DNA of 64,000 bases from NCBI GenBank assembly GCA_019448385.1, contig JAGTXO010000022.1, forward strand, positions 379,501 to 443,500, in the 5' to 3' direction. The position numbers and the translations under genes are program-made. This stretch comes from Diacronema lutheri (Eukaryota; Haptophyta; Pavlovophyceae; Pavlovales; Pavlovaceae). The number at the start of each line of letters is the position of its first letter. The stretch's first letter is position 1. Positions 12,982-37,012 of the stretch are shown here, in pieces. The notes beneath the pieces were generated by a model that saw only the letters and a list, made by a program, of their open reading frames with translations, was not told the origin of the DNA and did no database searches.

Positions 12982-13400
12982 TTGCCACCGCCCAGGTATA
13001 GATGGTCAAGCCAAATCCGATCAGGGGCACGATCGCGCCCCGAGTGCAGCGCGGGCCGTTCGGAAGGACGTCCTTGTGAGGGAGCTCTTCGCGTTTGGCG
13101 AGCGGGGGAGCACGACGCGCAGCGTTGCTGCGGCGGCGTGCGGGCGGCGAGCAGCGGTCGGGCTGCTCGCGACGAGGCCGGAGCAGACGGCGCCGTGGCC
13201 GCCGGCGCAGGTGACGCGCGCCGACGAGCCGTAGCGAGCGTCCGTGATCCGCACGGCGGTTGGAGCGGGCCGGCTGGTGCGGCGCGCTCGGCCACGGGTG
13301 GCGGCGTGCACGGTCGTGCCGCGCGCGGCACGCGTCGCCAGCCGCGCGCGACCTGGGCAGAGCCCGCAAAGCGTCGACCGCTGCGCGGCTCGGCCGTGCG
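12982..13400 (-). other. Non-coding gap after FIP1 and the Fanzor gene; possible guide-RNA region
   Basis: No supported protein gene lies in these 419 bp between the FIP1 stop and the convergent Fanzor stop. TnpB and Fanzor nucleases use a guide RNA transcribed from just beyond the 3' end of their gene, and this is that position. Short palindromes are present (for example AAGGACGTCCTT near 13060 and GTGCCGCGCGCGGCAC near 13315). No conserved guide scaffold can be recognised by eye, so the assignment is only positional. Confidence 0.25.
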
Positions 13401-15620
13401 TCAACGCCGGCCGCGCTTCGGCCCGCGCGCGCTGCCGCCGCCGGCACTGGCGCTGGCAGCTCCGCGGGCGGGGGTGCGGGCGCGAGAGCCGCCGCCGCCA
13501 CCGCCGCCGCGCCCGCCGCCGTCGTCGCCACCGCCGTCGCCGCCGCCGCCTCCCCCGCCGTCATCGTCGTCGTCGCCGCCGCCGCCTCCGTCGCCGTCGC
13601 CGTCGCCGTCGCCCTCGCCGCCGCCGCCGTCGCCGCTGCCATCGTCGTCGTCGTCGTCGTCGCCCTCGTCGTCGCCCTCGTCGTCGCCGTCGCACTCGTC
13701 GTCGCAGTCGTCGCCCTCGCCGTGCACCATGCGCTCCTCACGCTCCCACACCTCGCCGCGCGCCCACCAGGCGAGCACGAGGGCAAAGCGCTCAGGCGTC
13801 GACGTGGTGTCGCGCCCGGCCGCGTGCGCCGCCATGTCGTGCACGTCGTAGAAGATGTTGCGCGCGGCGTTGTAGTCGCGGTGCACGGGCTTCTTGCCGC
13901 CGTTGCACGCCGGGCAGATGACGAGCGCGTGCACCGTGCGCGTGCCGCCCTTTGCCACGGGCAGGCGCGGGTTCTGCGCGAGCTCCGCGCCGCAGCGCTG
14001 CAGCCTGCCGCCCTTGGCGAGCCGCGGCATCGAGCAGTGCATCGACGTGTACGGCTCGGGCACGAAGACGGCCGCGACGCCGCGCCGCCGCAGCTCGCGC
14101 AGCAGCCCCACCTGGAAGGCGGGCGGCGCGCCCTTGGGCTGCGCGCCCTTGTGGTCGCGCAGCCACTTGCCCACGCACACGAGCAGCCGGTCGCGCGTCA
14201 CGCCGTCGACACAGTGCGCCGCGATGAGCGCCTCGGCGACGCGCGCCGCGTTGGACCGCCCGCCGCTGTCGCGCCGCCAGCGCTCCTTCCGGCGCGCCGG
14301 CGCGTCGTACACGTGCTCGGCGGCGCGCTCGCGCACCCGCGCGCTCTCGCGGTGGAAGGCGTGGAACTCGCCCTCGCCGAGCACCTTGGCGCTGTGCGCC
14401 TCGCCAAGCCGCGCCTCGTCCGCCTCCACGCTGAACTCCTCGCCGCGCCCGTCCTTGCGCACGCGCCGCCGCGCCGCGTTGGTCTTGGCCGTCTCGCGCG
14501 CAAAGCCCGCGGCGCGCGCGCGCGCGCGCTGCGTGAACTGCCGCCAGACGGCCGCCCGCCCGACGTGCGCAGAGTAGGTGGTGATGTTGCCCATGTTCGG
14601 GTCGGCCGCGACGACGACCGCCGCCTCGACGTCGATCGCCCGCCGCAGCTCGGAGCCGAGCGCGACGGCGATGCGCCCGTCCGGCCGGCGCCAGCGGTGC
14701 AGGACGCCCGAGCCGCCGGCCGGCGCCTGCGCCTTCGGCACGAGGACGGTCCCGACGGCGTGCACGGCGACGCCATCTGTCACCACCGACTTGACGGGCT
14801 GCCGGCCCGGGAGCGGCACGCGCGGCAGCGGCGCGAGGCCAACCCACGAGCGCCGCGCGTGCCACGGCAGATCGGCCGGCGGCCGCTCGCGCCCGGCGTA
14901 GTCGAAGACGCGGTTGGAGATGTCGAAGCGCGTCGCAAAGACCGCGTACCTGACGCGCACGTCCGACATCGGCGGGGTGTTGCCGTTTGTGCCTGTCCAC
15001 TTGATCGGCTCGCCATCGTGGTCGCGCAGGTCCAGCGCCTTGAGCCGCGCGCGCAGCTCCTTGCGCTCGTCATCCGAAAGCGTCACCCAGATGGCGCTCG
15101 CGGCGAGGCGCACGTTGCGCGGCACCTGCGCGCAGCGCGCGGCGCGCGAGCGCGCGGGCGCGTGACCAACCTGGCCGCGGGGCGGCGCGCACGGCGGCGG
15201 CGCGCGCGCTTGGGCGCTCGGCGGCGGCAGCGGCAGCCACGCCTCGCGCGCACATTGTGCGTGCGCAGCGGCGCCACATTGTACCGCGGCGGCCGTCCGG
15301 TCAGCTGCGTGTGGATGTGCGCGAGCCGGCAGAGCAGCGCCTGCCCCTCGGCCACGTGCTGCAGGGTGCGGATCTGCACGAGGAAGTAGCGCGTCGTGTG
15401 CCGGTCGTAGTTCCACCTTTTCGTGGGCGTGCACTTGTAGTCGATCTTGTGGAGGACCATGTCGGGCAGGTGGCGGTCGAGCGCGGCGGGGCAGCCGACG
15501 CGCGCGCCCTCCACGTCGCCGCGCAGCAGCCGCTCGCACAGCTCGCGCACGCGCGCGTTTCGCTGCATCTCGGGCAGCGCGACGAGCGCCTCGTCGCGCT
15601 CGACTGCCGCGCGGACGACG
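13401..15620 (-). other. Fanzor (eukaryotic TnpB, IS200/IS605 OrfB-like) nuclease module
   Basis: Known family features seen: the N-terminal RYNVAPLRTHN segment, continued across the inferred intron into VPRNVRLAAS (Fanzor1-like 'LPlr..vPr'); a VVTDGVAVH motif; RuvC-I Asp in VVVAADPNMGN (codon 14603-14601); RuvC-II Glu in FVPEPYTSMHCS (codon 14057-14055); RuvC-III Asp in HRDYNAARNI (codon 13877-13875). A four-Cys zinc ribbon sits between the last two (HCS, RCG, CPAC). The catalytic residues are therefore all present, suggesting a potentially active RNA-guided DNA nuclease. Family assignment is strong; Fanzor1 rather than Fanzor2 is my inference from the TDGV motif. Confidence 0.87.
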
Positions 15621-18600
15621 TCGCGGAGCAGCCCGTTCACGACGCGCGATGGATGCATCAGGCACGCGGTGGACACCTGCGTCGCCTCCGCCTCGAGGAT
15701 CTCCGTGAGGCCCACCGCGCAGACGGGCTGGACGCCCTCGGCCATCTCGCCGACGGCGCGCGCCGTCGCCGCCTTGGTCTGCGCGGCGGCTTGCTCGGCG
15801 GGCTTGCCTCGGGGCGCTGCACCGTACGTGCTCTCGTCCTTGTGCCAGCCGATGGCCGAGAAGATCGCACGGACGGTTCCCTTGTCCATCGTGGTCGACG
15901 TGTGCACGCTGGTCGACGGGCCGCCCGACGCCGCGCCGACGGCCTGCGCGCTCGCCACCGCAGCCTCGTCGCGCACCACCTTGTTGATGACGCGGTACGC
16001 CTGTGTCGTGAGCCTGTGCACGGCCGCCGCGATGCGCCGCAGCTCCTTCCGCGCACCGGGCTGCGCCGTCACCGCCTGCGGCCCCGCGTTGAGCGTCGAG
16101 CGCTTGACCACGAAGCCCGGGAGCACGCTGACGCGCGTGCGCGCCGTCGCGCCGCCGGCGGCGCGCGCGCTCGGCGCAGCGGGCTCGTCCACGCGCGCGC
16201 GCTCGACGCCGCGCGCGCGGGGAACGCTCGGCGCGCGCGCGCCCGCGGCGTCGCGCGCGCTCGCGGCGGCACCCGCCGCGGCGCGCTTGCCCGCGGCGCC
16301 CGACTCGCCGTGCGCGCGAAGCGGCGCCGACGCCAATGCCGACGCCGCGCCCGCGCCGCCGCTGCCGCTGCCCGATACGCCCGCGCGCCGCTTCTGCTCG
16401 TCGCGCGTCTTGCGGAACTGGGCGACGAGGTCGCTGCTCACGTTGGCCTCAGGCTCCCACGTGTCGGCGCTCTCGTCGTAGCCCCGCCACCTGATCCGGA
16501 ACTGGAACGTCACCTTCTTGCCCGCCTTGCGGCGCTCGTCGACGACCGCCTCGACCTCGTACGTGCGCGCCTCCTCGTCGACGCTCGCGCCCGCCGCGCT
16601 CGCGCCCGTGTCCGGCCACCCAGCGACCGTGCCGCCCAGCCTCTCGGCGGCCGCGCGCAGCTGCCGCTCGCGCTGGGCGGCCGCGGCGCCTCGCGCGACC
16701 AGCGCGGGCAGCATGCCCGCGCCGCCCGCGAGGCCGTGCGCGCCGACGCTGGCGGTCATCAGCGCGTCGAGGCACGCGAACGTTGCGAGCGCACGCGCGC
16801 CATCGTCGCCGCCGCGCGGCTGCGAGCGCACGACGGGCGATGGCCGCGGCTCCCCCTCGGCCGCGAGCAGCGGCCAGATCGCACTGGCCAGCGCGACGGC
16901 ATGCGCGCCGACCGCGACGGCCACGTCCGCGTCGAGCGGCGCAAAGTCGTAGCGCACGAGCGCGGCCGGGCGCGAGTCGTCCGTCGGCCGGTCGGCGACG
17001 AGCAGCCCGACCGGGCGCGGCGGCTCGCCGGACGGCGCGGCGACGGGCACGCAGAGGAGCACGACGAGCAGGCGCGGCGTGCCGCCGAGCAGCGCGCGCG
17101 CGGCATCCGCCCCGTCGGCTCCGCCGCGCGCGGCCGCGGCGAGCAGCTCGGCCGCGCGCGTCGGGCCCAGCGCCGTGCGCGCGTCCTTGCGCGCGCGTGC
17201 GCGGGCCGTGTACGCGGCGCAGGCGTCGTCGAGCACCGCCGCGCTGGGCGCGGTGCCAGTCGTCGCCCACGCGCGCAGCGCGTCGCGCACCCGCGTGACG
17301 ATCGCCTGGTCGACCGCCGCCTCGCCGGCAGCGTGCGCCGGCGCGCACGCCGGCGGTGCGGCGGCAGGCGCGAGCGCGGGCGCGCCGTCGGCGCCGTCAA
17401 CGCCGACGGCGCCGTCGGCGCGCCGCCACGCGAGCTTCGCCTCGATCTGCTGCCGGACGGCGTGGCAGTGCCGGTCGATGCCGCGCGCGTCGTCGAGCGC
17501 GGCCAGCGCGTCCTCAGCGGCGGGACGGCCGCTCGCGTCCGCGACGGCCTGCAGGCAGAGCAGCGCGGCCGCACGCGCGTTGCGCGCGCTCTGCGGCTCG
17601 GGCGCGAGCGCGAGCTCGAGCTCGAGCGGCGACGCGCCTCGCGCCGCGGCGATCGCGTCCATCAGCACGTCCAACCGCTGCACCAGCGCCCTGTGCGCGT
17701 CGCGCGGCGCGCCCGTCGACGGCGCGCGCGAGCGCGTCGCCAGGAGCCCGAGCGCGCGCGCCGGCGCGCCCGCCGGCGTGTGCAGCACGAGCAGCGCCGC
17801 GCCCGCCAAGCTCGCGTTGCGCGTGACGAGCGCGAAGATGCGCGTCGCCTCGTGCGCGCCCACCGACGCCCAGATCGCAGCGCGATCGGCGTCCGTCTGC
17901 GCGTCGCACAGGTCGCGCACGTCGTCCGGCGCGAGCAGCGCGCCGCCGCCGGCGGAGCGCGCGACGATCGCCCGCGCCTCCGCCACGAAGACGGCCTGCG
18001 GCAGGTCGGCGTGGCGCGCGTCGACGATGGCGCGCGTCGCGTGCACGCCGAGCTCCACGCCGCGGTAGAAGGCGCGCGCGTTGGCCGCGCGCGCGTGCGC
18101 CGGCCGTCCGTCCGCGTTGCGCCTCGCGCGCGCCTGCTTGCTCGTGCGCGCGAGGCCGTCGCGTGGCGGTGGCGGCAGCGTGGCGAGGAAGCGCGCGGCG
18201 GGCGGCGGCGCGCGCACGCCGCGCTGCCGCCGTGCGATGGCCGCGAGCCGCCGGCCCGCCGCGCTGCCGCCCGCGCCGACGTGCTGCCGGCGGCCGAGCG
18301 CCGCCGGTGGCGGCGGCGGCGGCGGCGCGGCGGCGGGCGGCGGCGCGACGGCGGGCGGCGGCGCGGCGGCGGGCGGCGGCGCGGCGGTGGGCGGCGGCGC
18401 GGCGGCGGGCGGCGGCGCGGCGGCGGGCGGCAGCGGCGGCGGCGCGGCGGCGACGGCAGCACCAGTCGGCTTGTCCGCCCACGCACCCGAGACTCTGTCC
18501 CAGACCTTGCCCCATGGCGCGCGCCCACGCGGCCGCGCGAACTGCCCCGGCTCGAGCGCCTGGCCGCGCTTGGCGGCGGCGGCGGCGGCAGGGGGCGGGC

Positions 18601-21600
18601 GGCCGGCGCGCCAGTCGAAGACAGGTGCAACCGTGGCGGCAGGCGCCGAGTGCCGCGCGTCGGTCACAGAGCGCGTGGTGCGCGCGGCGACCGTGGCACG
18701 CCTGGCGGGCGGGCGGTGAGCAGCGCCCGCCGGCGCGCCGGCGGGCGCGGCCGCCTCGAGCCCGGCGGAGGCGCCGCGCTTGCGCTTGCGCGTGCCGCCG
18801 CGCGTGCGCCTGCGCGCGCGCCCGCCGCGCGCCCGTTCGGCCTGCGCGTCGCCAGCCGCGTCGCCGGCCGCGTCGCCGCGCCGCACGTAGACGACCGCGA
18901 ACGCCTCCTCGCCGGTCCCGTCGACGCCGCCGCGCGCGCGGCGCAGGACCGACCGCCACTGCAGCCGCCGCGCGCGGCCGGGCTCGCACGCAAACCAGCG
19001 CCCACCGCGCCTGACGACGGCCACAAAGTCGTCGTCGCGCCGCCCGCGCCGGCGCGTGCGCAGCAGCACGCACTGCACGTCGAGCCAGCCCTCGTGCCAG
19101 TCGGCCGTGCTGGGGGCGACGCGAATCGACTGCGGGAGCTCGACGCCAAAGCCGGCGAGGCGCACGATGTGCGCGACGATGACGCTCGAAATGGCGGGGG
19201 CGCTCGACGGGTCGCCCGCTGCAGCGAGCACCGCCCCGCCCCAGTGCTCACGCGTGACGCAATCCGCGTCCTCGACGTGCACGTGCGCCACGCTCGCGCC
19301 GAGCTGGTGCAGCAACGCGCAGATGTCGGCGTCGACCGTCCTCTCCTCCTCGGCCGCCTCGGCCGTGCCGCGGGCGGCGGCGTCGCCTGCCGGCTGCCCG
19401 AGGTACGCGATCGCCCGCTCGACGGCCGCGCGCTCCGCACGCGCTGCGCTGTCGATCGCCGCATTGCCGACGGGCGCGCGCAGCGCCGCGATCGCGTCTT
19501 GCAACGCCGTCGCGTCGCCCGTCGCCGCCGCCGCCGTCACCGCCGCCGCGCTCGCGGTGCCGTGCGCGACGGCGTGCAGCGCGGCGGCGCGCGCGGCGGG
19601 GATGCGCCCGTCCAGCGCGAGCACGAGCGGCGGCCCGGCCGGCGTCTGCTGCCGCCGGTGCCGCCGGCTCGCAGCCGGGTGGTCGGCGCGCGCGCGCTCG
19701 AGCCGCGCGCGCCGCTCGACGACGCGCGCCCAGAAGGCCTGCACCCTCGGCTGCGCGAATGCAAGCCAGCCGGCGCCGCGCGTCACGACGTGCACGACGA
19801 TCCGGTCCTCGTGCCTGAGGTACTGCACGTAGAGCGCTTTGCTCACGCCGAGGACGTGCATGCCGAGCTGCAGCTGATCGCGGTGCGGCTGCGGCGGCCC
19901 GTCCTCGTGCGCCGTGGCGCCCGCCTTGGTGAGCGTCTTCACCTCGACGAGGACCTGCTCGTTGTTTTCGGGGAGGATGGCGAGCCCGTCCGGCGAGAAG
20001 GCGAACGGCGCGCTCTTGTCGTGCGGGTCCGCACGCACCATCGGCAGGTTGCACACGACGGTGATGCCGTACGCGGCCGCCAGCTTGCGCAGCGCGACGG
20101 CCTCGCCGAGGATGCCCGCGGTCGTCGCCTTGGTCCGCACCTCGCGCCGCCGCCGGTGCACGTACTCGTCGGTGAGCGTCTCGTGCGCGACGCCGGCGTT
20201 GTCGTTCACGACGTCGCCAACCTTGCTGCCCGTGACCTCCTCCCATCGCTCGTCGTGCCAGCGCGGGCTGCGCTGCGCGGGCGCGCCCGCGCCGACGGCG
20301 TCGAGCACGCGGCGCAGCGCTGTGCCGTCGGGCGCAGCAGGCACGCGCGCGCGGTCCTGGGCCTCGCGAGCGTCGAGGACGCGGCCCGTAGTGGAATCTT
20401 GGGGTAGGTCGAGCTTGCTCGCCTCGCCGTAGCGGCTCTCCAGCTGGCGCGGTGCGTCGGCAGGGCCGCCGTCCGTGCGCGCACCCGACGCGCCCGCCAG
20501 TGCACGCGGCGCAGCGTCCGAGGCGCCCGCCGCGCCCGCGCCGCCGCCAATCGCGCCAGCGCACGCGCGCGCCGCGACCTGCGGACGGCCAGCCGCAGGG
20601 ACCTCGTCCGCTCGGCCGGCCGCTGCGTCGGCCGTCCGCTTGGCCACCTCGCGCACGTCTCCGAGCGCGAGCGTGGCTGGCGCCGTCCAGCTCCCGTTGC
20701 GTTTGTCCCAACATTTGAGCAGCCCGCCAAGGAAGGGCGTGCCCGTCGGGCGGTCCTCGGGCACCTCCGCCAGGATCGCGTCGACGCGCAGCGCGGCCGC
20801 CACATCGCAGAACGCGCGCGCGGCGCGCGCCATCCGCTCGGCGCGCGCGCCGCCGTCGTCCGCCGCGCGGCGGATGGCGTGGCTCACGTGCGCGACGCGG
20901 AGCGAGACGACGGCGTGCGCCGGCGCGTCGGCGCCCGTGCCGAGCGTGTGCCGCCGGATGGCCAGCTGCCCATCGCCCATGCGCGGCGGCAGCGACGCGC
21001 ACGCCGCGACGGTCGTCGTGCCGGCCGCGCTGTCGCACAGCCAGCTCGCCTCGCCGCCGCCCGCAAACTCAAAGGTCGCGAAGCCCTCGCGGCCGAAAAG
21101 CGCGACGAAGTGGTCGAGCACCGCCTTGTTGATCGCGCGCGCCGCCGGCCGCGTCGATGCGCCGCGGGCAGCGCCACCCGCCGCGCCGCGCGCATCGCTG
21201 CACGTCGCAGGGCAGGTGCAGCCGGACGCGCGCACGCCGTCCGACCGCGTCCGCGGCAGCTCGAGCTCGCGCACCTTGGGGCAGAACCAGAGCGGGTTGG
21301 ACGCCTCGAGGCACAGCACGACGAGCCGCCCGTCCGTGCCGGCCAGCGCGCGCGCGTCGCGCAGCAGCTCGACGGCGAGCTCGGACGTCGCCGCGTGCAC
21401 CGCCGGCTCGCCCGTCGCGCGGTCGGGCGGGAAGAGGCCGCCGCCGACGAGCGGGCTGGGGCAGCGGCCGAGCATCACGAGAAGCGGCGGCGGCGGCGTC
21501 TGCGGCGCCTGCTGCCCGACCGCAGCCGCCGTCAGCCCGGCCAGGTCGGAGCTCGTGCGGAGGGCCTTGAGCGCGACGCGCGAGCCGGTGCCCGCCTGCT

Positions 21601-23986
21601 CGGAAAACGTGGCGAGCATGGCGCACGTGCTCGCCCTCGCGCCGCACTGCCAGCTGACGCGCGCGAGGAGGCCTTCCAGCGTGTCGTTTTCGCGCGGCCG
21701 CGTGACCGCGTCGAGCGCCGCCGGGCCGAGCTGGAGGCTGCCGGGCGTGACGCACAGCACCGCCTCGTGGTAGGCGCGCAGCAGCTCCCTCGGCAGCTGC
21801 TCGGCGGGCGTCGCCGCCTGCCCGCCCACCCACCGTGCACCGTGGCCGCCGTCGCCCGCGCCCGCGAGCCGGACCGCCGGCCCGCCCGTGATCGCCGAGG
21901 TCGGTGGCGTGCCGAGCGCGTCGACGAGCGCGCGCACGGGCGCGACACGCCTGCGCGCGGCGTCCGCGCCGACGGCGAGCGCGGCGATCTGAGCGCCGTC
22001 CCATGCGCGCTCCCTCGCGTCGTCCCGCGCGGCCGCCGGCGCGGCGCCCGGCCGCGCGCCGGGCGGCACCGCGCACGCCGCCGCGACGACCTCCGCGCGC
22101 GCGCCGGCGGCGTCGGGCGCGTGCAGCTGCGCGAGCGCGCCAAAGAGCGCGGCGGCCGAGCGGTAGCGGCCGTGCGCCGCGACGAGCGCGTAGAGCACGC
22201 GCAGCGCGGCCACGCCCGCCTGGTCGGGCGCGTCGCCAGCGATTTGCTCGACCTCCCACGTGCGCGTGGGCGGCGGGCTGCCGTCGGCCGGGTCCGGACG
22301 CAGCGCCCACGCGCGCTCGACGATCGCGTTGAACACGCCGTGCGCGGCGCCCTCGTCAAACTCGGCGGCGCCCGCCGCGTGCGCGCACCACCCGTGCACG
22401 CGCGACGTGGGCGCGTCCACGGCGCGCTGCACGACGAGCACCGCCGGCCGGTCGACGCAGCCGAGGCTCACCGCCGCGTGCTTGCCCTCGAGCAGCGCCG
22501 CCGCCGCAGCCTCGACCAAGGCGTCATCAGGCGCGTCGCCGACGACGACGGCACAGCCGTCGCCGTACTCGGCCTGCATCGCGGCGACGCACGACGCGAC
22601 AAAGTCGCCGCCCGCGGCCGCCGCGTGTCGCGCCGCCAGCATCCGGCGCGCGATGGCAAGCCAGACGTACTCGGCCGGCGCGCGCGCGGCGCGCGCGCGA
22701 GGCGCGCCGGCCGCGCCGCGTGCGCCCGCGCGTGCGCCTCCAGCGGCCGCAACGGCCGAGGCGGCTGGAGCGGCGGTGAGCGTGCGCCGCGCGCGCTTCG
22801 CCGGCCGCGTGATGGGCGATGCACCCGCCATCGCACCGCCCGCAGCAGCCGGTGCGGCCGCCACAGCGCCCGCCGCAACGCCACTCGTCACGACGCCCGT
22901 GGCGGGCGGCGCGGCGGCGGACGTGGCCGCCTCGACGGGCGTCGCGCAACTACCGCCAGCGGTCGCGGACGCGCCCGGCGACGCGTCGGCGAGGAGGTGG
23001 CGCAGCACGCCGCGCGCGAGCGCGACTCGCACGGCGAGCGTCAGCGCGCGCAGGCGGTCGGAAGGCGAGGCGTCGCGCTCGGCGTCGGCGGACGTGGCGG
23101 CAGCAGGCGGGGCGGCGGGCGGCACGGCGGCGGGCTGGGCGGCCGCCGGCGCAACCTCGTCGGCCTTGGCCAGCCAGACGAGCCCGGCGACTGCGAGCAC
23201 GACGCTGTACGCGCCGACATCGTCACCCGCAACGCGCGCCAGCCGGGCGTGGGCGTCGGCCTCGGACACGGCGACGTGGAAGAGCACGTCGTCGCGGGCA
23301 GCTTGCTCGGCAAACTGACGCAGCTGCTTGGCCATCGTCACGCCGGCGACGCACGCCTCGCCCGCCTCTGCCTCGACCTGCTCGTCCTGGCCGATGGCGG
23401 ACGCGCCGGCCTCGGCGCCAGCGTCGAGTGTCCGGCGGCGCTCGAGGGCGAAGCCACGCACACAGACGCGCTGGAGGCCGCCGAGCGCGCCCGCCTTCTC
23501 GTGCAGCGCGCACGACAGCTCGACCACCGAGTCCACGCGCCTCGCGGCGGCGCCCCCCCGCTCGCCGCGCGTGGCCGCGCGCACGACGAACACCGTGAAT
23601 TGCGCGCGCTTCGCCGCGCGCGCCGACGCGCACGCGTGCTTCAGGAGCCGGCAAAGCGCGGGCCTTTGCGCCGCTGCGCCCCGCGTGCACAGCAGCAGTT
23701 GGCCGCGCTCGTCGCCCAGCTCCTGCTCGACGGCGGCCTCGAGCGCGTCGTCCGTCAAATCGCCGTGCTCCGTCGAGGCGAGCGCGCGCGCAGCCGCGAG
23801 CGCCAGCTCGCCTGCGCCCGCGCGCCGCCGGCGGCGCGCACCGGCGGGCGCGTGCGGCGCCGACGCGTGTGACGACGCCGCCGCGTCCGCGCGCGCACAC
23901 GCGGCGCGCAACGCCTCACGCGCCGAGGCGGCCGCGCGCGCCCTGGGCGCGAGCTTCAAGAACGTGCGCGCGGCGGTGGCGGCGGC

Positions 23987-24059
<73 letters not shown>

Positions 24060-27000
24060 TCGCCCGCGTCGCCGGCCGGCGGCGGCGGTGGCGGCGGTGG
24101 CGGCGCGGCCACGGCGGCGGCAGCAGCGGCGGCGGCGGCGGTGGCGGCGGCGGCGGCGCCCAGCGCGGGCGGCGGCGGCGTGGCGGCGGCGGTGGCGGCG
24201 GCGGTGACGCCAGCGGCGGCCTTGGCGCCGCGCGTCTGCGGCGGCGTTTCGGCGCCATCGGGGCTGCCCCCGCCGCGCACCGCGCTCGTGACCGCGCAGA
24301 CGCCGCCCGGCGCACGATCGCTGGCCGCGCCGGTCAGCGCGACGCGGAGGCGCTCGCCGACAGCGTACATGTCCGCCACGCTGAACGTGCGCGGCGCGGA
24401 CGAGCAGCCCGCCGCGGCGAGCGCGTCGTTGAGCGCGCCCACTATCGCGAGGCCGCACGTCGCGCCACGCTGCGCCGCCTCGTTGAGCAGCAGCGCGCGG
24501 CGCACGCGCGAAATGTCGAGACCCGCCGCGTGCAGCGTGGCAGTTATCGCCTTGGCGAGCATGAGCGCCTGCCTGCAGGGCGACGCGAGCGTGTCGACGA
24601 GCACCGCGTCGTAGCGATGCTCGCCCGCGCGCGCGACGCGCACAAGGCGCAACGCGGTGAAATGGCCGGAGGCGAGCTGCGCGCCGTCGTCACCGCCCGC
24701 GCCGCCGCGCTCGTCCGACGGGCTCCACACGCCGATGACAGCCTGCGTTGTCGCCTCGCTGCGCAGGCGGTGCAGCAGCGCGGCGCGCTCGGCGTCGTCC
24801 TGAAACACCGCGGGTTGCGCGGCGAGCGGCACGTGGCAGACATGCCCGCCGCCGGCCTGCCCGTGCACGCGCAGCACGACCTCGCAGCACGCGTCGACGG
24901 TTGAGGCGAGCATGTCGCCGCTGGCGATGCGCTCCACCTCTGCCTGCGGGAGGCCGGCGCTCGCGGCGGCGGCGGCCAGCCGGCGCGCAGCCGCGTCGCC
25001 CGCCCACGCAAGCAGCGCCGAGTTGGCGGGTTGGAGGGGAAGCTCAAGGGCGGCTGGTTCGGTGGCGGTAGCCTCGTTGGCAACGGGCACGTTGGCGGTG
25101 CGCGCGTTGGCGGCGGGCGCGGCGGCGATGGCTGGTGGGGCGGAAGACGCGCCCGCGGCGGCGGGCGCGGACGCGGCAGCGGCAGCGGCTAGTGGCGCGG
25201 GGAAAACGCCGTCGGAGGCGGCCTGGAGGGCGGCAGCGGCAGCGGCTAGTGGAGCGGGGCAAAAGGCGTCGGAGGCGGCCTGGAGGGCGGCAGCGGCAGC
25301 GACTAGTGGGGCGGGGAAAACGCCGTCGGAGGCGGCCTGGAGGGCGGCAGCGGCAGCGACTAGTGGGGCGGGGAAAACGCCGTCGGAGGCGGCCTGGAGG
25401 GTGGCAGCGGCAGCGGCTAGTGGCGCGGGGAAAACGCCGGTGGTGGCAGGCGCGGAGGCGAATGCAGGAGCAACTAGTGGGGCGGGAAAATCGGCGGCAG
25501 GCGCGAAGGCGGATGCAGGAGCGGCTAGTGGGGCGGAAGACACGCCCGCGGCGGCAGGCGCGGACGCGACAGCGGGAGCGGCTAGTGGCGCGGGGAAAAC
25601 GCCGGTGGTGGCAGGCGCGGAGGCGAATGCAGGAGCAACTAGTGGGGCGGGGAAAACGCTGTCGGAGGCGGCCTGGAGGGCGGCAGCGGCAGCGGCTAGT
25701 GGAGCGGGGAAAACGCCGTCGGAGGCGGCCTGGAGGGCGGCAGCGGCAGCGGCTAGTGGAGCGGGGCAAAAGGCGTCGGAGGCGGCCTGGAGGGCGGCAG
25801 CGGCAGCGACTAGTGGGGCGGGGTCGGAGGCGGCCTGGAGGGCGGCAGCGGCAGCGACTAGTGGGGCGGGGAAAACGCCGTCGGAGGCGGCCTGGAGGGC
25901 GGCAGCGGCAGCGGCTAGTGGCGCGGGGAAAACGCCGGTGGTGGCAGGCGCGGAGGCGAATGCAGGAGCAACTAGTGGGGCGGGAAAATCGGCGGCAGGC
26001 GCGAAGGCGGATGCAGGAGCGGCTAGTGCGGCGGGGAAAACACCGTCGGCGGCAGGCGCGAAGGCGACAGCAGCAGTGGCTAGTGGAGCGGAGGCGCAGG
26101 GCCACGCGCGCGCCAGCCGTGCAAGCCCAAGCCGCGCGCGAGCGACGCACGCGCCGATGGCCGAGGCGGCGGCGCAGGCCACGACGTGGCATGGCACCGG
26201 TGTGGCCAGCCGCTCGCGGGTGTGCACGTCGAGCCGCGCCCCACGCCAAGAACGGCGGCGCGCTGAACGGAGGCGCACGACCCCGATCGGTCCGCCCGCG
26301 CACGCGCGCGCCGGCTCAGTGTGGCCAACGCGCGCCGCTATGCAAGGCGCGCGCGCGATAACGGCGGCTGTCGGCCGTGGCGTGCGCGTGGCGGCGCCGC
26401 GGCGACGGGCGCGGCACACGAGCCGCTCGGGTGCGCCGCCGCCGCGCGGCACGATGTCGAGCAGCACGGTCACGCCGCGCGCGCGCGCGACCGCCGTGCA
26501 CGCGAGCCGCACGGGCAGCGGCGGCCCGTCCGGGCGCGCGAGCGCCGCCACCTCGGCGTCGGTGAAGCTGTGCAGCTCGCGGCGCGCGCGCGCGAACGCG
26601 GCAATGTCCGCGCGCAGCTCCGCGTCCGTGCCGAGCGCAACGCGCGCGTGCACGGGGAGCGACGCGCGCAGCGCGTGGAGCACGCCGCCGCGCGCGCCGC
26701 GCGGCGCCGGCGCGCGCTCGCGCTCAGCGCGCGCGGCGCGCGTGAGCTCGCGCACCGCGCGCTCGAGATTGCGCGGCGCGGCCGCGACGGGAGGGCTAGG
26801 TGCGCGCGCGCGCCGGTTGTAGCGCGGCCGCGCCGAGTTGAGGGGCGGCGGACGCGGTGCGTACGCCGCGGCGCGGCCCGCGCGCCAAAAGGCCGGCGGC
26901 GGGCGCAGCTCCGTCGCGTCGACCGCGGCCGCGAGCGCGCCGAGCGCGGCGTCGCTGTCGCCCGCCGCGTCGGCCGCGTCGACGAGCACGAAGAGCGCGC

Positions 27001-30000
27001 CGAGCGCGCGCGACGCGGCCGCCTGCGCGGCGGTGGGGCGGGCGCAGGCAGCGACGCATGCGGCCGCCATGCCACGCGCCGCGGCGAACGCCGGTGACGT
27101 GACGGCCGCGCCGATGGCAACGGCGGCGGCGGCGACGGTGGAGGCGGCAGCGCCGGCTATGGAGGTGGCAGCGGCGGCGGCGCTTGCCATCGCGCGGCGC
27201 GCGAGACGCGAGGCGCCACCGACCGCCGCCGCCGCAGCGCGCGCTGCGCGCGCGCCGGTGGCGCGCATCGTCGCCGCGCCAGGCGCCGCCGCGCCGATGC
27301 CGCCGGCGCCCGCGCCGTCGCCGCTCTCGGCCGTGCAGGGCTCCGATGACGGGCCCGGCGTGCGCTGGCGCGTGATGCGCGCGCCGAGGCGCGCGCTCCG
27401 CGCCGCGCGGCCGGCGACGTCGAGGACGCGCCGTGCGCGCGCCGCGCACAGGCCACGCGCGCGCGGCGGCGCACCGACAGGCGCCGAGCGCCGCGGCGCG
27501 CACGCCGGCGCGTCGCTGTCGGGTTGCGCAGCGCGCGCGCGGGAACTCGGCGCGGCGTGTGCGGGCGGCGGGCGCGCGCCCGCGCGGCGCAGAGGCGCGA
27601 GGCGCCGGCCGCAGACGAGGCGTGTGCGCGGCCAGGACGGTGAGGGCCGCAGGGCGCCGTCGACGTCGCGCATCGGCGGGCTGCGAGCGCGCCGCGCAGC
27701 CGTGCGGCGCGCGCAAGGCGCTCGGCGGCGCGCGCGCCGCACGGCGCGCGCGGCGGCGCGCACGCCAGCGACGGCTGCGGCCACGCCGCGCGCCAACACG
27801 GCCGCGGCGTGCGCCATCGCACCGAGCACGGCGCGTGGCGCGCCGAGCAAGCGCAGCAAGCGCGACGCCGTCGCGCGCGCCGGCGCACCGTGTGCAGGGG
27901 CCTCGCCAGCGCCAGCACCGACGCCGCCATCGCCGCAGCCGCAGGTGGCGTCGCCGCCGCCGCAGGCGTCGCGACGGACGCCGCCGCCGCCGAAACAATC
28001 GCCGCACACGTCGCCGCCGACGTTGCCACCCCAGCCGCCGTTGCCTGCGTAGGTGGCTGCGGCGCGTGCGTGCGGGAGGCGTGCCGTGCGCCGCGCATCA
28101 CACGGGCTGCGCGACGCGAGCGACGCCGCCGGGGGCCCCGCTGCGCCAGGCGCGCCGTGCGCGCCAGCCTCGCCGGCCTCGCCGGCGCGCGGTCGCGCGC
28201 TCGCCTCGACGTGGCCGCCTCCGCCGCCATCGCCGCCGTCGAACCGGGCGGCGGAGGGCTGCCGCTCGAACCGCTCGTCGGCGTCGGCCGCCACCGCCGC
28301 CTCGCGCTCCGCCGCCGCATCGGCCGCACGGCGCGCGTGGCGGAGCGCGCGGCCGCCGTCCGCTGCGCGGCGTGGTGGCGCGGGCGCGGCCTTCGGCGCG
28401 CGCGGCCTCTCGGCGCGCTCGCGGAGCACGGCGAGCGGCGTGCCTGTGGCGACGCTCGTGCAGACGCGCTGCAAGGCGGCGCTTACGCACGCGTGGACGA
28501 CGCGCGCCGTCCGCTTGTCGGCGGCGCGCGCGGCGCGGCGCGCGGCCTTGGCGGCGGCCTTTTTGGCGCGCCTCTGCTCCGCCTGCTCCGACAGCGCGCG
28601 CGCCTGGCGCTCGGCTGCGAGCGCTTCCTCGGGTGAAACGGTCGGCCTCGGCGGCTGCGCGCGCGCGCTGCGACGCTGCGCGCTGCGGCGGTCGGACGGC
28701 GGCTGCCGCGGCGGCGAGGACGGCGGGCGCAAGCTCGGCGTGGGCGACCAATCACCGCTGACGGTTGCGAGCGGCGCAAACGGGTTGTCGTCCCCGCACC
28801 CCGCGGCGTGCGACAGTGCACGCGGCGTCGGGCGCCGGCCGACCGCTGGCGGGCCCCACTCGGACGGCAGCTCCGAGGGCGAGCGCGCCGTCGGCGCCGC
28901 GCGTTCCGCGGCCGGCGGCGCCTCCCGGTCCAGCGCCGCCTGCTCTCTCGCCGCGGCCTGCTCGTCACCCTCCGGCACGCCACGCGGCGCGAGCACCGCG
29001 GTGGCGCAGCGCGTCGCGTTGAGCAACGCCGCCTCCATCTGCCGCACGTTGGCCTTGGCGCACGCCACACCCTGTCTCGCCCGGCGCAGCGCCTCGTGCG
29101 CGCGGCGCACATCCGCGTCGGCATCTTCGCGAATGCCAAAGTGCGCCTGTTGCAGCCGCAGGTCCGCAGGGCGCCCCTGCGCGCGAGGGGCACGGGCGCG
29201 GCGGCGCGCAGGTGACGGAGCTGGCGCGCCGTTCTGCGCTGCGCGCACGCCAATCGACGGGCGCGCGCGCGGCGGGGCGCGCGCGCGCGCGCGCGCGCGC
29301 GCTGCCTACCCAGCCGCCGGCCGGCTCGCGCGAGCGCGCCAGCTGCTCCGCCGCCTCGGCGTCGAGCACGCGCTGCTGCGCCTCCTCCTCGCCCAGTGCA
29401 GCGAGGTGCAGCCGGCGGGCTGCCTTGCGGCAGTTGCCCTCCGCCTTGCCCACGGCCTTGCGCGCCGCGTCGACGGGGTCGTCGTTGGCTCTGGCGCGCC
29501 TGCGCTTGCCCTTGTCGGCGGGCGGCGGCTCGGCGCGCTGCAGCGTGCCGAGCGCGTCGTCGGCTCCGCGCGCGGCCGCCCGCGGGCGGCGGGCCCCAAA
29601 AAGCGCACCGGTCGCCGTGCGCGCCGCGCAAGCAACGACCAGCGCTGACATGCCGGCGAAGACCGCACCGCCCAGCGCCACGGTTGCCACGATGCGCAGC
29701 GTCCCGTGCGCAAGCCGCGCTGCCTCCGCCGCTTTGGCGGCCTCGCGCGCGCGCGCATCGGCGGCTCTCATCTCGTGCAGCAGCCCGGCCGCGCCGCTCG
29801 CGCCGTCGCGGCCGCGCGCGAGCTCGCACAGCACCGCCGCCGCGTGCCGCGTGGGCTCGCGCGCGAGCAGCTGCGCGCTGCCGTCGGGGCGCAGCTTCTC
29901 AACGAACTCGACAAACGTCGCGTCGCGCCAGAGGGACTTGCGGAAGGCCCTGTGCACCGCCCCCTCTTGCTTGCGCATCCGCCGTGCCGCCCGCCTGCCG

Positions 30001-30605
30001 TCGCGCGCGTGCGCTTGCGCGGCCGCGTCGAATCCCGCGACGCCGCGCTGCGCGTCGCGCGCGGCCGACGACGGCGCCGCCGCGCTGCCCGCCAAGGGCG
30101 CCGCAGCGGCGACGCACGCGTGCGGAGCGACGGGATCGCCGGCGGCCGGCGGCTCGGCGCGCTGCGGCGTGCCGTTTGCTCCGCGCGCGGCCGTCCCGGG
30201 GGAGATGGCCGCGATGGCGCCACCAGCCGCGCCGTGCGCCAGCCACGCGCATAGGCTGCCGACGAGCTCGCCGAGACCCCCGACGGTCGCCGCGGCGGCG
30301 AGTGCGCCGGGCTTGCCGGCCGACAGCGGCTCGCGAGCGTCGTCGTCGCAGCCGCCGGCACCCGTCTTGGCGAGTGCGTCGCGCTCGCCCTCGACGCCCG
30401 CCACGACCGCCGCCCCTCCGTCGTCCGCCGCGCCGGCCGCGCGCGCGGCCGGGCGCAGAGGAGGCGTGCCGGTGCAGCCGTCGCCGCTCGTCTTCGCCGT
30501 TTCCTCCACCTTGATCGCTTCGTCGCTACCTGCGCCATCTCCGACGCCGGGGCCCTTGGTCACGCTTGCCGCCATGGGCATCGAGCCGGTCGTCTCCTGC
30601 GCCAT
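13401..30605 (-). CDS. Giant mobile-element protein: Ulp1-like protease, YqaJ-like nuclease, chromodomain, Fanzor nuclease
   Basis: Model: exons 30605-29310, 29176-15254 and 15125-13401, with phase-0 introns of 133 and 128 bp, giving 5,647 residues. The middle exon is open for almost 14 kb. In order: an N-terminal region with one hydrophobic segment and basic coiled coil (1-432, least certain); Ala/Arg-rich sequence; a 19-residue tandem repeat (about 1460-1760); a Ulp1-like protease (H1937, D1960, C2006); poly-Ala; several protease-like but degenerate regions; a YqaJ/lambda-exonuclease-like PD-(D/E)XK core (E3457, D3495, E3510, K3512); Pro/Ala linker; a chromodomain (about 4638-4680); and a Fanzor nuclease (about 4900-5600) ending in an Asp/Gly-rich acidic tail and a KRGRR end. 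I know of no described protein with this set. That it is one translated protein is inferred from frame continuity and the splice fits. Confidence 0.65.
15126..15253 (-). other. Inferred 128-bp intron inside the Fanzor module
   Basis: Donor AAT|GTGCGC and acceptor GCGCAG|GTG, both phase 0, join the 14-kb frame to the Fanzor catalytic frame and restore a Fanzor-like THN|VPRNV junction. Length and borders match the introns of MYCBP and other genes here. Confidence 0.7.
16440..16565 (-). other. Chromodomain within the giant gene
   Basis: Reads YEVEAVVDERR, then FQFRIRWRGYDES and DTWEPEANV: the canonical chromodomain order with the aromatic cage positions Y, W and the WEP motif. Chromodomains in retroelements and some DNA transposons steer integration to methylated histone tails; a targeting role here is inference. 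Confidence 0.88.
19720..20290 (-). other. YqaJ / lambda-exonuclease-like nuclease domain in the giant gene
   Basis: The PD-(D/E)XK motif set is in order: RWHDERWEEVTGSKVGD (entry helix, 'T.SK'), GILGEA (Glu), FSPDGLA (Asp), VLVEVKT (E-x-K) and DQLQLGMHVLG (the Gln helix). This family makes 5'-3' exonucleases or recombinases in phages, large DNA viruses and some eukaryotic transposons. All core residues are present. Confidence 0.8.
23965..24235 (-). repeat. GGC/GCC trinucleotide tract (poly-Ala and poly-Pro coding)
   Basis: Nearly pure GCG-type repeats with a run of more than twenty alanine codons, plus poly-Pro. Expected to be length-unstable. Confidence 0.9.
24420..24960 (-). other. Ulp1-like (C48) cysteine protease domain in the giant gene
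   Basis: His in SGHFTALRLV (H1937), Asp in VLVDTLAS (D1960), then Gln and Cys in AAQRGATCGLAIVGAL (C2006, Gln five residues before). This order and spacing match SUMO/adenovirus-type proteases. Such proteases occur in several eukaryotic transposons, where they may process fusion proteins. Other parts of the gene look like decayed versions of the same fold. Confidence 0.6.
25180..26090 (-). repeat. 57-bp coding minisatellite in the giant gene
   Basis: About fifteen units of a 57-bp repeat encoding 19 residues of the type GVFPAPLAAAAAALQAASD, with shorter variant units between. All length changes keep the frame, which argues that the frame is or recently was translated. Confidence 0.9.
29177..29309 (-). 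other. Inferred 133-bp intron holding a (GC)n microsatellite
   Basis: Donor TGG|GTAGGC and acceptor GCGCAG|GGG, both phase 0, join the N-terminal frame (432 residues, from 30605) to the 14-kb frame, leaving two coiled-coil-like stretches contiguous. A (GC)n tract of roughly 28 bp lies at about 29275-29302. If this is not an intron, repeat slippage would produce the same frame change. Confidence 0.5.
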
Positions 30606-32458: not shown

Positions 32459-35400
32459 TCACGTGCTCGATGTGGCACTTAAATTCATGTCGATGTGACG
32501 GCCTCCCTGCTCGATGTGCTGTACGGCCACGGCGTGTCGGATCCGCCCCTCAGCCGTGACCGCAGCTTCGTCCGGCCACGCAGCGGGCTCCCGCGCGTTG
32601 TGCGCGCTCGGCGCGCGAGTGGTGCCAGTGGCGGGCGAGCCTCGTCGCCCACGGAGCCCGCCCCCGGCTCGGCGGCGCGCCGCCTGCTCGCCGGATCGCG
32701 CACCGCCGTCGCCGCCGCTGCGCGCTTGCCCAGCTTGCCGGCAGGCGGCAGGCGGCGGCGACGGCGGCGGCGGCGGCTGCGGCGCGAGCGCGACGCCGGG
32801 CGGCGGCAGCGCCGACGGCACGCGCGTGGCGGCGACCCACGCGGCGGCGGGCGGCGCGCCGGCTTGAGGCCCCTGCACGCCGGCCGCATTGGCGCCGCCC
32901 TGCGCGCCCGCGAAGGGCGCGCAGGTACGCGGGCCGGTCGCGCGGCGCGCGGTGCTGGCGAGCATCCGCCGGCTGCGCGTCGGCGCGAGCGGCGCGGCGG
33001 GCGTCGCGCCGGCGGGTGCTGGCCAGCACCGCGCGCCGGCGGCGCGCCCGCCGCCAGCGCGCCGCCCGCCGCCGGCGCCGCGCGCGCCGTCCGCGCCGCG
33101 CCCGCCGCGCTCGCCGCCACCGCGCGCCGCCGCCGCGCATTCGCGCGCGGCGGCGACGGCGGCCGCGGCGAGCGCCGCCGCCGCCGCCTCGCCACCGCTG
33201 ACCGCGCGGAGCACCTCTTTGAAGACGACGCTGCGCGTCACGAGGTCCGCGCCGAGCGCAAAGCGGACGCGCGACGTGTGCCCGACGCGCGAAGCGGCCA
33301 CGTGGAGCTGGCCGTGCGTGAAGCACGGCTCGGCGATCCACACGCCCGCGCACCCGAGCGCTTGCCCCTGCGCCTCGTTACGCCGGCCGCACCGGGGAAC
33401 TGGCGGCGCATCCGCACAAGCGCGAACGTGCCGTCGTCGGGCGAGTGGTGGTCGACACGCGCGACGAGCACGGTGCTGTCGCGCCCGGCGGCCGCGCCGG
33501 GGCGTGCGCACTCGAGCAGCCGGCCGCCGGCGCGCACGCCGCGCACGATCAGCCGCGTGCCGCCGCACAGCCCCTCGCCGGGCGAGAGGTTGCGCGGCAG
33601 CATCACCACCATCCCGGGCTTCAGGTCGAGGACGCGGTGCGGCATCTGCGCGTGCTCGAGCGAGTCGAGGAATTCGACCGACGCCCGCGCAATCTGCTTG
33701 CCCGCCCCGTCGTCGCGCCAGCTCGTCCGCCGACGCGCACCTCGCCGCCGCGCCCGGGAAGCGGCCGATCACCAGCCAGTTGATCCGCGCCACGTCCGTC
33801 TGCTTGGCGCAGAGCACCGCGCGGTCGCACAGCGAGCCGTCGTCGGTCCAACACGTCGCGCCGTGGACAAAGTCGTCACGAGCTCCGTCGGGTAGGCCGA
33901 GCCCACGCGGATGGGGACGCCGCCGACGGCCTCGGGCAGCTGCACGGGATCGAGCGGGAATGCGCCGGGCATGGCCCCGGCCGCCGGCACCGCCGCGGGA
34001 ACGGCGCCGTCGCCGGGGCTGCGCAGCAGCTCCGCCCACTCGCCCGCGCCGAGCGCGTCGCCCGTGTCGCGCGCCGCGCTCGAGGCGCGAACGTTCTCGA
34101 CCAAGGCGTGCTGCCGATCGTGCTGCCACGGCGCCGAGTACTTGAGGCAGGAGCGCACGATCTGCGCGCGCGAGCCGCGCCGCACCACCGGCAAGCACTG
34201 GCGAAAGTCGCCGGCGAGCAGCAGCGTCTCGCCGCCGAAGCGCTCGTCGACGCCCGTCACGTCGCGCAAACACCGATCAGGCGAGTCGAGGTGGCACCGC
34301 GTCTGCATCGGCGCCTCGTCCCACACGACCAGCCGCCGCGGCGGCCAGGGAGCGCCCGCGCTCGGAGCGCGGCACGCCATTGAACGGCTTGCCCGTCGGA
34401 GTCGGCACCGCCGGGCACCTTGAAGGTCAAGTGGAAGGTGCGGCCGTCGGGCAGCAGCGTGGCGGCGACGCCCGAGGACGCGCCCACGACGACCGCGTGC
34501 CCATCCGCGCGCACGGCGGCGATAATGGCGCGCTCGACGAACGTCTTGCCCGTTCCGCCCGGCGCGTCGCAAAGATGCAGCCGGTTGCCCACGCCGCGCA
34601 GCGCCGATTTGACGACCGCGCCGTGGAGCGCGCACTGCTGGCCGCCCTCGGCCATCGCCGCGCGCGCCGCCGCCGCGCTCGCAGCCCGCTCGGCGCGATG
34701 GTAGCCCTGCGCGCGCGCGAGCTCGCGCCCGCCCGGCCCGGCCGGCGCGCGCGCCGTGCGCAGACCGGCCACCGCCGCGAGCGCCGCCGCGCGCTCGCGC
34801 TCGTCGGGCACGTACAGCCCCGTGGAGTCGAACGTGTCGGCCCAGGCGGGCACGCCGTACGAGGCGAAGGCGTCCGAGCCGGGCTGCGGCCGCTGCTCGG
34901 CGCGCTTCAGGAGCATGACCCCGCACACGTTCCACTTGGTGCCAAACATCGAGCCCGTGAGCCCCGTGTAGACGCGGTCGAGCTGCGTGGCGATGGCGCA
35001 GACGTCCTCGTGCCGGATCTCGTCGACCGGTTCGCGCCGCGCGTCGACGAGCGGCACGACGCGCTCGGAGCCCGCCCACGTGAACGTGCGCGTCGACATG
35101 TTCAGCCGCGTGTGCGCGAGCGTGTCGTCCTCGTACTTGGGCTTGACGGCGGGCGAGAGCTTGCCGCGCACCTCCTCCTTCGAGAGGCCGCGCGTGTTGA
35201 GCAGCTCCTTCTGGCGCGCGTGCACCGTCTCGACGCGCTGATCGTCGATGGCGCGCAGGGCGCCAAAGTAGGCGTCCATCTGCGCGAGCGGCGCGCCTTC
35301 AATCGGCAGCTCCTTGTCGGTCACGCCGGCCGTGTACGCCGCCTTGTCGACGTCCGTCGGCCCGTACATGGTGCCAAAGTTGCCGTCGCCCGTGAGCTCG

Positions 35401-35570
35401 GGCCAGTCGACGACGCAGGGCGGCGAGACGAAGGCGAGCGCGCGGCGCGACGGCCCGTAGCTCAGCTTGTCGACCGTGCGCGCCTGCTCGCTCGGCTTGA
35501 CCGGCCGCGTGCTCACGATCTCGCAGTTGACGAGCGCCGCGTCGAAGGCGCGCAGGTCGATGGCGGCCAT
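32459..35570 (-). pseudogene. PIF1-type helicase with N-terminal ssDNA-binding-like domain, frameshifted
   Basis: ATG at 35570. The first ~200 residues (…YGPSRRALAFVSPP… GALRAIDDQ… TKWNVCGVMLL) resemble the single-stranded-DNA-binding proteins of large DNA viruses. Then follow PIF1 helicase motifs: Walker A DAPGGTGKTF, Walker B LVVWDEAPM, GDFRQCLPVV, AYPTELV, DVARINWLV, LDLKPGMVVMLPRNL, GLCGGTRLIV, then NEAQGQALG and HGQLHVAASRVG. The motifs occur in order but in three frames: the frame changes near 34370, 33870, 33715 and 33400. At 33870 and 33715 a single base explains the change, so introns are unlikely there. It is probably a dead gene from a mobile element. Same strand as, and upstream of, the Fanzor gene. 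Confidence 0.75.
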
Positions 35571-36045: not shown

Positions 36046-36127
36046 GGCGCGCACGACGTCGCCCAGCCAGAGCAGCCCGGGGCGGGGCGAGTCCGGCTGC
36101 GCGGAGGTCCGGCTCGAGCGGGCGGGC

Positions 36128-36475
36128 GCCATGCTCTGAGGCGCCGCCGCTTTCTAAAAGGGTGTAGGGTGTAGGGTGTAGGATGCAAAACAAGCCCTCC
36201 CCACATTTGGGCCCGACGTCATTCCTTCTTCGAAGCCGTGACGTTACTCACATACGAGTACTTTTACTTAGTGTAGGATGTATCTATTCTCTAAGTATTT
36301 GCATAGTGTAGGGTGTAGGATAAGTACGGTTACGAAAGTCCTACAGGGAGTGAAGGAATGACGCTGTGACGAAAGAAGGAATGACGTCGGGCCCAGATGT
36401 GGGGAGGGCTTGTTTTGCATCCTACACCCTACACCCTACACCCTTTTGAAAAGCGGCGGCGCCTCAGAGCATGGC
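36128..36475. mobile_element. Non-autonomous TIR element (MITE-like), copy 1
   Basis: About 348 bp. Ends are inverted repeats of about 100 bp beginning GCCATGCTCTGAGGCGCC and continuing through CTTTCTAAAAGGG, three TGTAGGG units, GCAAAACAAGCCC and GGGCCCGACGTCATTCC. The interior is AT-richer than its surroundings and has no coding sequence. Confidence 0.85.
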
Positions 36476-36690
36476 GGCTCGACAGCATGGCGCCTATACA
36501 GCATGGCGTCGTCCAGCGTCACGCCGCGTCGTGGTCCTGCCGCTCCTCCGTGGCGCACGGATGGCGCTCCTCCGTGACGCAGCCGAACGACGTCGCGGCG
36601 TCACGGCCCGGGCGCAGTCGCCATCCTGGACGCCACGCTGGACGACGCCATGCTGTCGAGGCGCCATGCTGTCGAGCCGCCATGCTCCGA
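36476..36690. repeat. Palindromic spacer between the two TIR elements
   Basis: The left part (GCATGGCGGCTCGACAGCATGG …) is the near-exact reverse complement of the right part (… CCATGCTGTCGAGCCGCCATGC), with a non-repeated centre at about 36530-36620. It extends the palindrome formed by the two elements. Confidence 0.8.
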
Positions 36691-37012
36691 GGCGCCGCCG
36701 CTTTCTAAAAGGGTGTAGGGTGTAGGGTGTAGGATGCAAAACAAGCCCTCCCCACATTTGGGCCCGACGTCATTCCTTCTTTCGTCACAGCGTCATTCCT
36801 TCTCCCCCCTATGGGACTTTCATAACCGTACTTATCCTACACCCTACACTATGCAAATACCTAGAGAATAGATACATCCTACACTAAGTAAAGGTACTCG
36901 TATGTGAGTAACGTCACGGCTTCGAAGAAGGAATGACGTCGGGCCCAAATGTGGGGAGGGCTTGTTTTGCATCCTACACCCTACACCCTACACCCTTTTA
37001 GAAAGCGGCGCC
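36691..37012. mobile_element. Non-autonomous TIR element (MITE-like), copy 2, inverted
   Basis: Same family as copy 1; the interior is its reverse complement (for example CATACGAGTAC/GTACTCGTATG). Ends are GGCGCCGCCGCTTTCT and AGAAAGCGGCGCC, so the outer tip is slightly shortened relative to copy 1. Confidence 0.85.

Follow-up and report, generated by a model that had tools for sequence, protein, structure and literature searches.

How a Fanzor RNA-guided nuclease comes to lie at the end of an open minus-strand frame of about 14 kb in the haptophyte alga Diacronema lutheri, and whether this frame stands alone or belongs to something larger, are the questions raised by the stretch of 64,000 nucleotides analysed here (the window, C78:379501-443500; w followed by a number denotes a position in it). 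The original prediction had read the locus as one protein combining a Ulp1-like protease, a YqaJ-like nuclease, a chromodomain and a Fanzor. Searching a genome of 43,492,796 bases in 103 contigs (the published assembly is given as 43,502,671 bp in 103 contigs with 73.25% GC, PMC8379373), we found that the long frame and a PIF1 helicase gene belong, in the same orientation, to one larger unit at w12996-39011 (26,016 bp, gene strand minus), which is almost certainly a giant Fanzor-bearing transposon. In the window it is present as a variant reduced to 26.0 kb by internal losses, the common form having about 31 kb. The prediction mentioned neither the high-copy giant transposon, nor the PIF1 helicase, nor the USP deubiquitinase carried by the 31-kb form.

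The ends of the element were obtained from 10 copies, which were fetched together with 10-kb stretches at both ends and compared to the window. At the Fanzor end, similarity stops at w12996 in nine of the 10 copies and at w12999 in the remaining one (L028), and the opposite end reads GGACCGCGCC[C/G]TATATA in all 10 as well as in the window. Two copies (L012 and L019) show an alignment break at about w38920 at the PIF1 end, L019 keeping the terminus after a sub-terminal deletion. The flanks are mostly unrelated between copies, short repeats aside. Many copies with the same sharp ends and differing flanks identify an interspersed mobile element, and its abundance was confirmed with several probes: with 100% identity, at least 40 places match 1301 bp of the Fanzor end (best 40 of 314 candidates) and at least 40 match 1346 bp of the PIF1 end (best 40 of 241), while the segment w24296-25060 has at least 149 matches at 98-100% (best 149 of 229) and a module known from the 31-kb copy on contig C71, the C71-type module, at least 147 (best 147 of 192). 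Together the two segment searches give at least 171 places with the element or large parts of it, some of which may be fragments; both segments are present in at least 125 places, 123 of them with a spacing of 7.0-7.4 kb. By its sequence, the element appears to be currently or very recently active.

At the two extreme ends stand GTATA, in 10 of the 11 copies when the window is counted, and TATATA, in all 11; these termini could represent the target sequence. A short repeat starting with CTAACG[AG]CGC was observed at position 52514 of the window and at ten further loci (L003, L011, L016, L017, L018, L019, L022, L025, L034 and L035); it directly follows TATA in nine of the 14 places listed, two of the nine being places where a copy of the giant element adjoins the repeat at its TATATA end. 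Since this repeat is also preceded by TATA, the terminal TATATA can be assigned to the element or to the target. The repeat may share the target preference of the giant element. Moreover, at least 12 contigs (C1, C5, C6, C10, C12, C26, C29, C80, C83, C90, C91 and C92) hold a C71-type module at the offset expected for a contig start at the Fanzor end. For 11 of them (C10 left out) the opening 80 bases were read, and each of these starts is no more than about 50 bases away from the Fanzor end. None of eight other contig starts, chosen for nearby module places, is found there; one of these eight, C49, begins only a few bases into the element from its opposite, PIF1 end. These starts are probably assembly breaks at the repeat and not chromosome ends, although they may alternatively reflect linear extrachromosomal forms.

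Comparing structural forms separates a constant from a variable part. The C71 copy (C71:452451-483485, 31.0 kb) matches w14545-30576, with indels in tandem repeats, and then w32593 to the element end; between the matched parts lie 7.7 kb in C71 versus 2.0 kb in the window. This insert encodes a USP-type deubiquitinase (Pfam UCH, 4.3e-8) and the C71-type module, the frame of which continues into the 29.3-30.6-kb frame of the window; both are absent from the window copy. Nothing relevant to the module was found among PDB sequences, and an EVTT-type stretch in its second half (L030:3741-7775, minus strand) gives the impression of a nuclease-like fold, with no profile match. The C2 copy lacks w24155-32592 and has a 4.9-kb insert instead, which by reading contains the same USP frame and no C71-type module. 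A further USP variant with a frame of 439 codons accounts for at least 30 UCH matches (best 149 of 217 candidates), 18 of which have a chromodomain-Fanzor match 12.0-12.7 kb downstream. The shorter form seen in the window is the less common one: among the best 149 places with the 24.3-25.1-kb segment, 24 have no listed C71-type module within 30 kb. The constant part, present in the window, C71 and C2 copies alike, comprises PIF1, the stretch with the exonuclease, the chromodomain and the Fanzor. The N-terminal part of the long frame varies, other copies having a different sequence in its place or none at all.

The Fanzor is distributed over two frames. Its catalytic exon with RuvC and TNB occupies 13401-15125 on the minus strand, in a frame other than the long one, and is recognised by Pfam PF07282 (TNB; 4e-6, 27.3 bits versus a cut-off of 26.3, in the frame 13401-16448) and by motifs read in the translation, namely D (14609-14589), YTS (14063-14034), CPAC (13919-13905) and HRDYNAARN (13883-13857). 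TNB is accordingly accompanied by the RuvC order, the motifs following the pattern D...[TS][TS]xx[C4]...RD published for Fanzors (PMC3627910). By position and continuity, the N-terminal half is placed at 15285-16126 (minus strand) in the long frame, from amino acid (aa) 4394. The interval between the halves, 15126-15284 on the same strand (upper limit approximate), is a probable intron, because the frame changes there, an acceptor-like CAG ends at 15126, and a 2-nt indel (w15200), as an intron would allow, is present in both the C71 and the C2 copy. The predicted Fanzor is confirmed, but its catalytic half is read in another frame than the long one. Downstream of the Fanzor stop, the non-coding 3' end at 12996-13400 (minus strand) is, by its position and by analogy to the known Fanzor/TnpB layout, a candidate for the omega-RNA scaffold, which would reach the element end; Rfam yielded no match in w10000-42000. 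Apart from this element, the genome contains a second, different Fanzor family with at least 14 places at equal or near-equal scores (43.9-44.5 bits to PF07282), including loci L001-L008 on contigs C11, C1, C4, C9, C25 and C69, one of which (L002) is a 3.2-kb locus with a 586-aa open frame.

The long frame upstream of the catalytic exon was confirmed as predicted, with 4740 codons at 15083-29305 (minus strand) and no internal stop, where the other two minus-strand frames contain 49 and 19 stops. The start that the prediction had placed at 30605 does not belong to it: from 30605 to about 29.3 kb a different frame is used, and here an upstream coding-like stretch runs from the ATG at 30605 to 29310 (minus strand), as judged by GC phase and translation, and is common to C71 up to w30576. 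The switch between the two frames occurs close to a run of GC dinucleotides (about 29.28 kb) and could stem from an intron, a shifted microsatellite or a misassembly. Along the long frame, the G+C content of third codon positions (GC3) is 0.86-0.96, except for two 250-codon bins with 0.70 and 0.77, which coincide with 57-bp tandem repeats inside the frame (25173-26091, minus strand); over the first 750 codons GC3 is only slightly higher than the value of first positions.

Three of the predicted constituents share this frame, i.e. the YqaJ-like nuclease, the chromodomain and the N-terminal Fanzor half, whereas the Ulp1-like protease could not be substantiated. A YqaJ/lambda-type (RecE-like) exonuclease at 19709-20284 (minus strand, aa 3008-3199) is well supported by sequence comparison, with a PHROG 434 match of 6.3e-15 to RecE-like exonucleases complemented by the lambda-exonuclease family TIGR03033 (3.2e-5; 24.1 bits, below its own cut-off of 68.05) and Pfam YqaJ (0.033, below cut-off); its translation contains GILGEA, SPDG, EVKT and QLQLGM, which we take to be motifs with a role in this exonuclease family. 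The chromodomain assignment at 16409-16561 (minus strand, aa 4249-4299) is certain by profile, Pfam Chromo giving 6.1e-12 and 45.7 bits versus a cut-off of 25.1, and the same residues also match CDYL (8.6e-9) and HP1 (7.3e-7) chains. For the segment once called Ulp1-like (24296-25060, minus strand), Pfam returned no match at E up to 10 over 24000-25300 of the long frame, and nothing relevant was found among PDB sequences; the impression goes back to the motif GHF / VDT / QRGATCG read by eye. An AlphaFold2 single-sequence model reached a mean pLDDT of 42.3 and gave 190 Foldseek matches at E<=10, none of them at E<=0.001. Both this and a second single-sequence model (38.0) are too poor to use, and a model of low quality is no evidence against a Ulp1 fold. 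The idea that the frame contains degenerate Ulp1-like modules in several places was rejected, pairwise hhalign of 12 segments giving a probability of 1.19% at best. Since C2 does without the candidate segment, self-processing by such a protease, as proposed originally, is not needed in every copy, and the variable N-terminal part weakens this idea further.

Whether the frame encodes one protein or several bears on a rival explanation, according to which several neighbouring genes share a frame by chance and an ordinary transposon, its transposase lying elsewhere or being unrecognised, has captured the Fanzor as a gene of its own. Local G+C amounts to 0.74-0.85 per kb, and in such DNA long frames are expected, as illustrated by an open frame of 1774 codons on the opposite strand within 15083-29305 (1787 by the open-frame listing); Fanzor1 genes have been captured by many transposon types (PMC3627910), and the replaced or missing N-terminal part in other copies is also what this explanation would expect. 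A length of 4740 codons, however, is not expected even there: 100 first-order Markov sequences as long as this stretch contained no open frame above 1323 codons, although the opposite-strand frame exceeds every simulation too, showing that this control is lenient and misses the shadow of coding. GC3 is in addition highest in a single phase over most of the frame. No Met codon occurs between aa 4198 and 4473, a range which includes the chromodomain (4249-4299) and the Fanzor N-terminus near 4394, so that translation of the Fanzor by itself would require a start codon supplied from upstream by splicing. Among the best 123 of 317 candidates, the chromodomain-Fanzor unit (326 aa) is complete in 123 of 123 places, 121 of them without an internal stop, and the surrounding open frame has at least 4400 codons in 70 and fewer than 3000 in 25; for the 24.3-25.1-kb segment, the corresponding numbers are 103 and 18 of 149 (best 149 of 229). 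In the C11 copy, the w24296-25060 segment, the C71-type module and the chromodomain-Fanzor unit all report the same open length of 6136 codons. We consider it likely from these sequences that chromodomain and Fanzor reside on one polypeptide, and assign a lower likelihood to the whole chain doing so; the explanation by chance neighbours appears possible but rather improbable.

Past coding is also suggested, as a weak sign, by two relic copies (L035 and L036), in which each of five main blocks has a lower nonsynonymous to synonymous ratio (dN/dS) in the assigned frame (0.69, 0.70, 0.70, 0.39 over 81 codons, and 1.11) than in the frame set against it (0.76-1.36), in a count that leaves out several low-complexity matches with values up to 4.1.

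The second gene of the element, a PIF1 helicase in several frame pieces at 33284-35570 (minus strand), matches Pfam PIF1 in two frames (1e-24 and 3.7e-14; 87.8 and 53.3 bits versus a cut-off of 25.9) and contains what we take to be Walker A (34556-34539), Walker B (34323-34306) and motif VI (33316-33284). A helicase of the PIF1 type is typical of Helitrons, and the element might therefore be a Helitron-like rolling-circle element with PIF1 in its replication machinery, hairpins near the ends and the Fanzor as a passenger. Palindromes can indeed be read near both ends (GTACGACCCGGGTCGTAC near the 5' end and GGGGC...GCCCC near the 3' end), and the Helitron2 elements CRe-1,2,3 of the green alga Chlamydomonas also carry a Fanzor and subterminal palindromes (PMC3627910). 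In contrast to these, the element described here is far larger, has TATA at its ends and shows no Rep/HUH, joined to PIF1 or otherwise, in the frames scanned with Pfam, which covered part of the six. The end folds are not significant (z -0.95 and -1.34), and the 3' end reads CTATAC, as opposed to CTRR in Helitron1 (PMC3627910), which leaves a Helitron-like origin quite unlikely.

PIF1-type helicases also occur in giant viruses, and exonucleases, PIF1 and proteases are common in giant-virus and Polinton-like viruses, with YqaJ being named in the giant-virus literature. An endogenous giant-virus or Polinton-like remnant is nevertheless very improbable, as capsid, packaging ATPase and family-B polymerase are missing from the Pfam matches of the scanned frames, a search of viral contigs, with a reach limited to close relatives, returned no locus related to PIF1, Fanzor or exonuclease, and the element is a uniform interspersed repeat. 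Large size also recalls two further groups of transposons. Fungal Starships span tens of kb, occur in several structural forms and have a tyrosine-recombinase captain, and Kyakuja-Dileera-Zisupton (KDZ) transposons are large with accessory domains; the element resembles the former in size and multiple forms and the latter in size and accessory domains, but neither the captain nor a KDZ transposase has a Pfam match in the frames scanned.

Taken as a whole and including its mechanism, the reading we favour, a giant 26-31-kb DNA element of a haptophyte with PIF1, a long exonuclease-chromodomain frame and a Fanzor, is on balance probable. In the proposed mechanism, the Fanzor, guided by an RNA from the 3' end of the element, would cut unoccupied target sites adjoining TATA, the lambda/YqaJ-type exonuclease would resect the break, and PIF1 would drive break-induced synthesis with another copy of the element as the template. 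The chromodomain would tether the complex to marked chromatin, and the ubiquitin-directed protease that the full form carries would be accessory. New insertions may be started by a transposase in trans or by one hidden in the unassigned part of the long frame. Resection and helicase-driven synthesis, as known for lambda-type exonucleases and PIF1, together with an RNA-guided nuclease of the TnpB/Fanzor type fit break-induced copying; by this analogy to known family activities, copying is put forward as a tentative possibility. A stronger version, in which the element spreads self-sufficiently and transposase-free by means of a chromatin-tethered cut-and-resect protein of more than 6,000 residues, with its own PIF1 filling the cut with a copy of the 31-kb element through break-induced replication, seems unlikely.

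Several results speak against the favoured reading. Neither a transposase nor an integrase nor a Rep was found in the Pfam-scanned frames, so that mobility in cis is unsupported, and a variable direct repeat in the manner of a target-site duplication was not seen in the 11 copies, which show only the near-constant GTATA/TATATA. With regard to the Fanzor, the N-terminal half has no profile match, the NCBIfam TnpB model scores 12.1 bits versus a cut-off of 100, residues 445-890 of the Fanzor frame match only an entry with 99% identity and no relative outside the genome, and the RNA fold of the last 200 nt is not significant (z -1.29). The N-terminal part of PIF1 (about 330 aa) has no profile match either, a search for relatives of the first part of PIF1 returning its own copy and one weak PIF1 match, and residues 1400-4740 of the long frame have no relative in the protein database (1317 candidates scored). 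Concerning the single chain, the C71-type module has in most places a frame of its own, 1345 or 1346 codons long (best 147 of 192 candidates), the two relics are decayed and contain frame-breaking indels, and the substitutions that separate the window copy from C71 and C2 are spread without bias over codon positions; such a lack of selection signs is expected among these three copies because they are very young.

Further features were recorded in and around the element. A nested palindromic, MITE-like insert at 36127-37013, with 207-bp arms that are 97% complementary and GGGTGTA-like repeats, falls within the stretch aligned in the 10 fetched copies, and a coding-like stretch on the plus strand of the element (w37428-37770, MYPQNVSELL...) has no Pfam match. 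The window copy is neighboured by a Fip1-matching frame (stop at 12981) and an adenosine deaminase-matching frame. Farther away, GC-rich tandem repeats (G+C 77-88% in each kb) fill the 6 kb of w17-6208 and sit in a plus-strand frame of 3621 codons running off the window start.

Fanzors in DNA transposons are already known, and those characterised in 2023 share with the present one the order of catalytic motifs, the TNB, the location on an element and the position near one end of it (PMC10432273). What sets the present case apart is that one upstream frame holds a lambda-type exonuclease and a chromodomain and continues into the Fanzor, that the element measures 26-31 kb and that it has PIF1 aboard; no classical transposase was recognised in the frames scanned. 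A characterised Fanzor uses a CATA motif (PMC10432273), which a TATA-type motif of the D. lutheri Fanzor would resemble. In a literature survey by title, which left most subscription papers outside, we did not encounter the exonuclease-chromodomain-Fanzor frame, its PIF1 partner, the 31-kb size or the copy number.

In the D. lutheri genome paper, repeats amount to 22.9%, and most of the annotated ones are LTR elements and LINEs (PMC8379373); if most places are full length, the element described here would by our estimate make up about a tenth of the assembly. Occupying at least 171 places in a 43.5-Mb genome, many of them identical, it offers a good natural system for testing what Fanzors do for their elements, roles that are only proposed in the discussion of the 2023 study (PMC10432273). 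Moreover, if the join is real at the protein level, a natural RNA-guided nuclease would have gained a chromatin reader and a resection enzyme, a kind of fusion otherwise built by hand by genome engineers.

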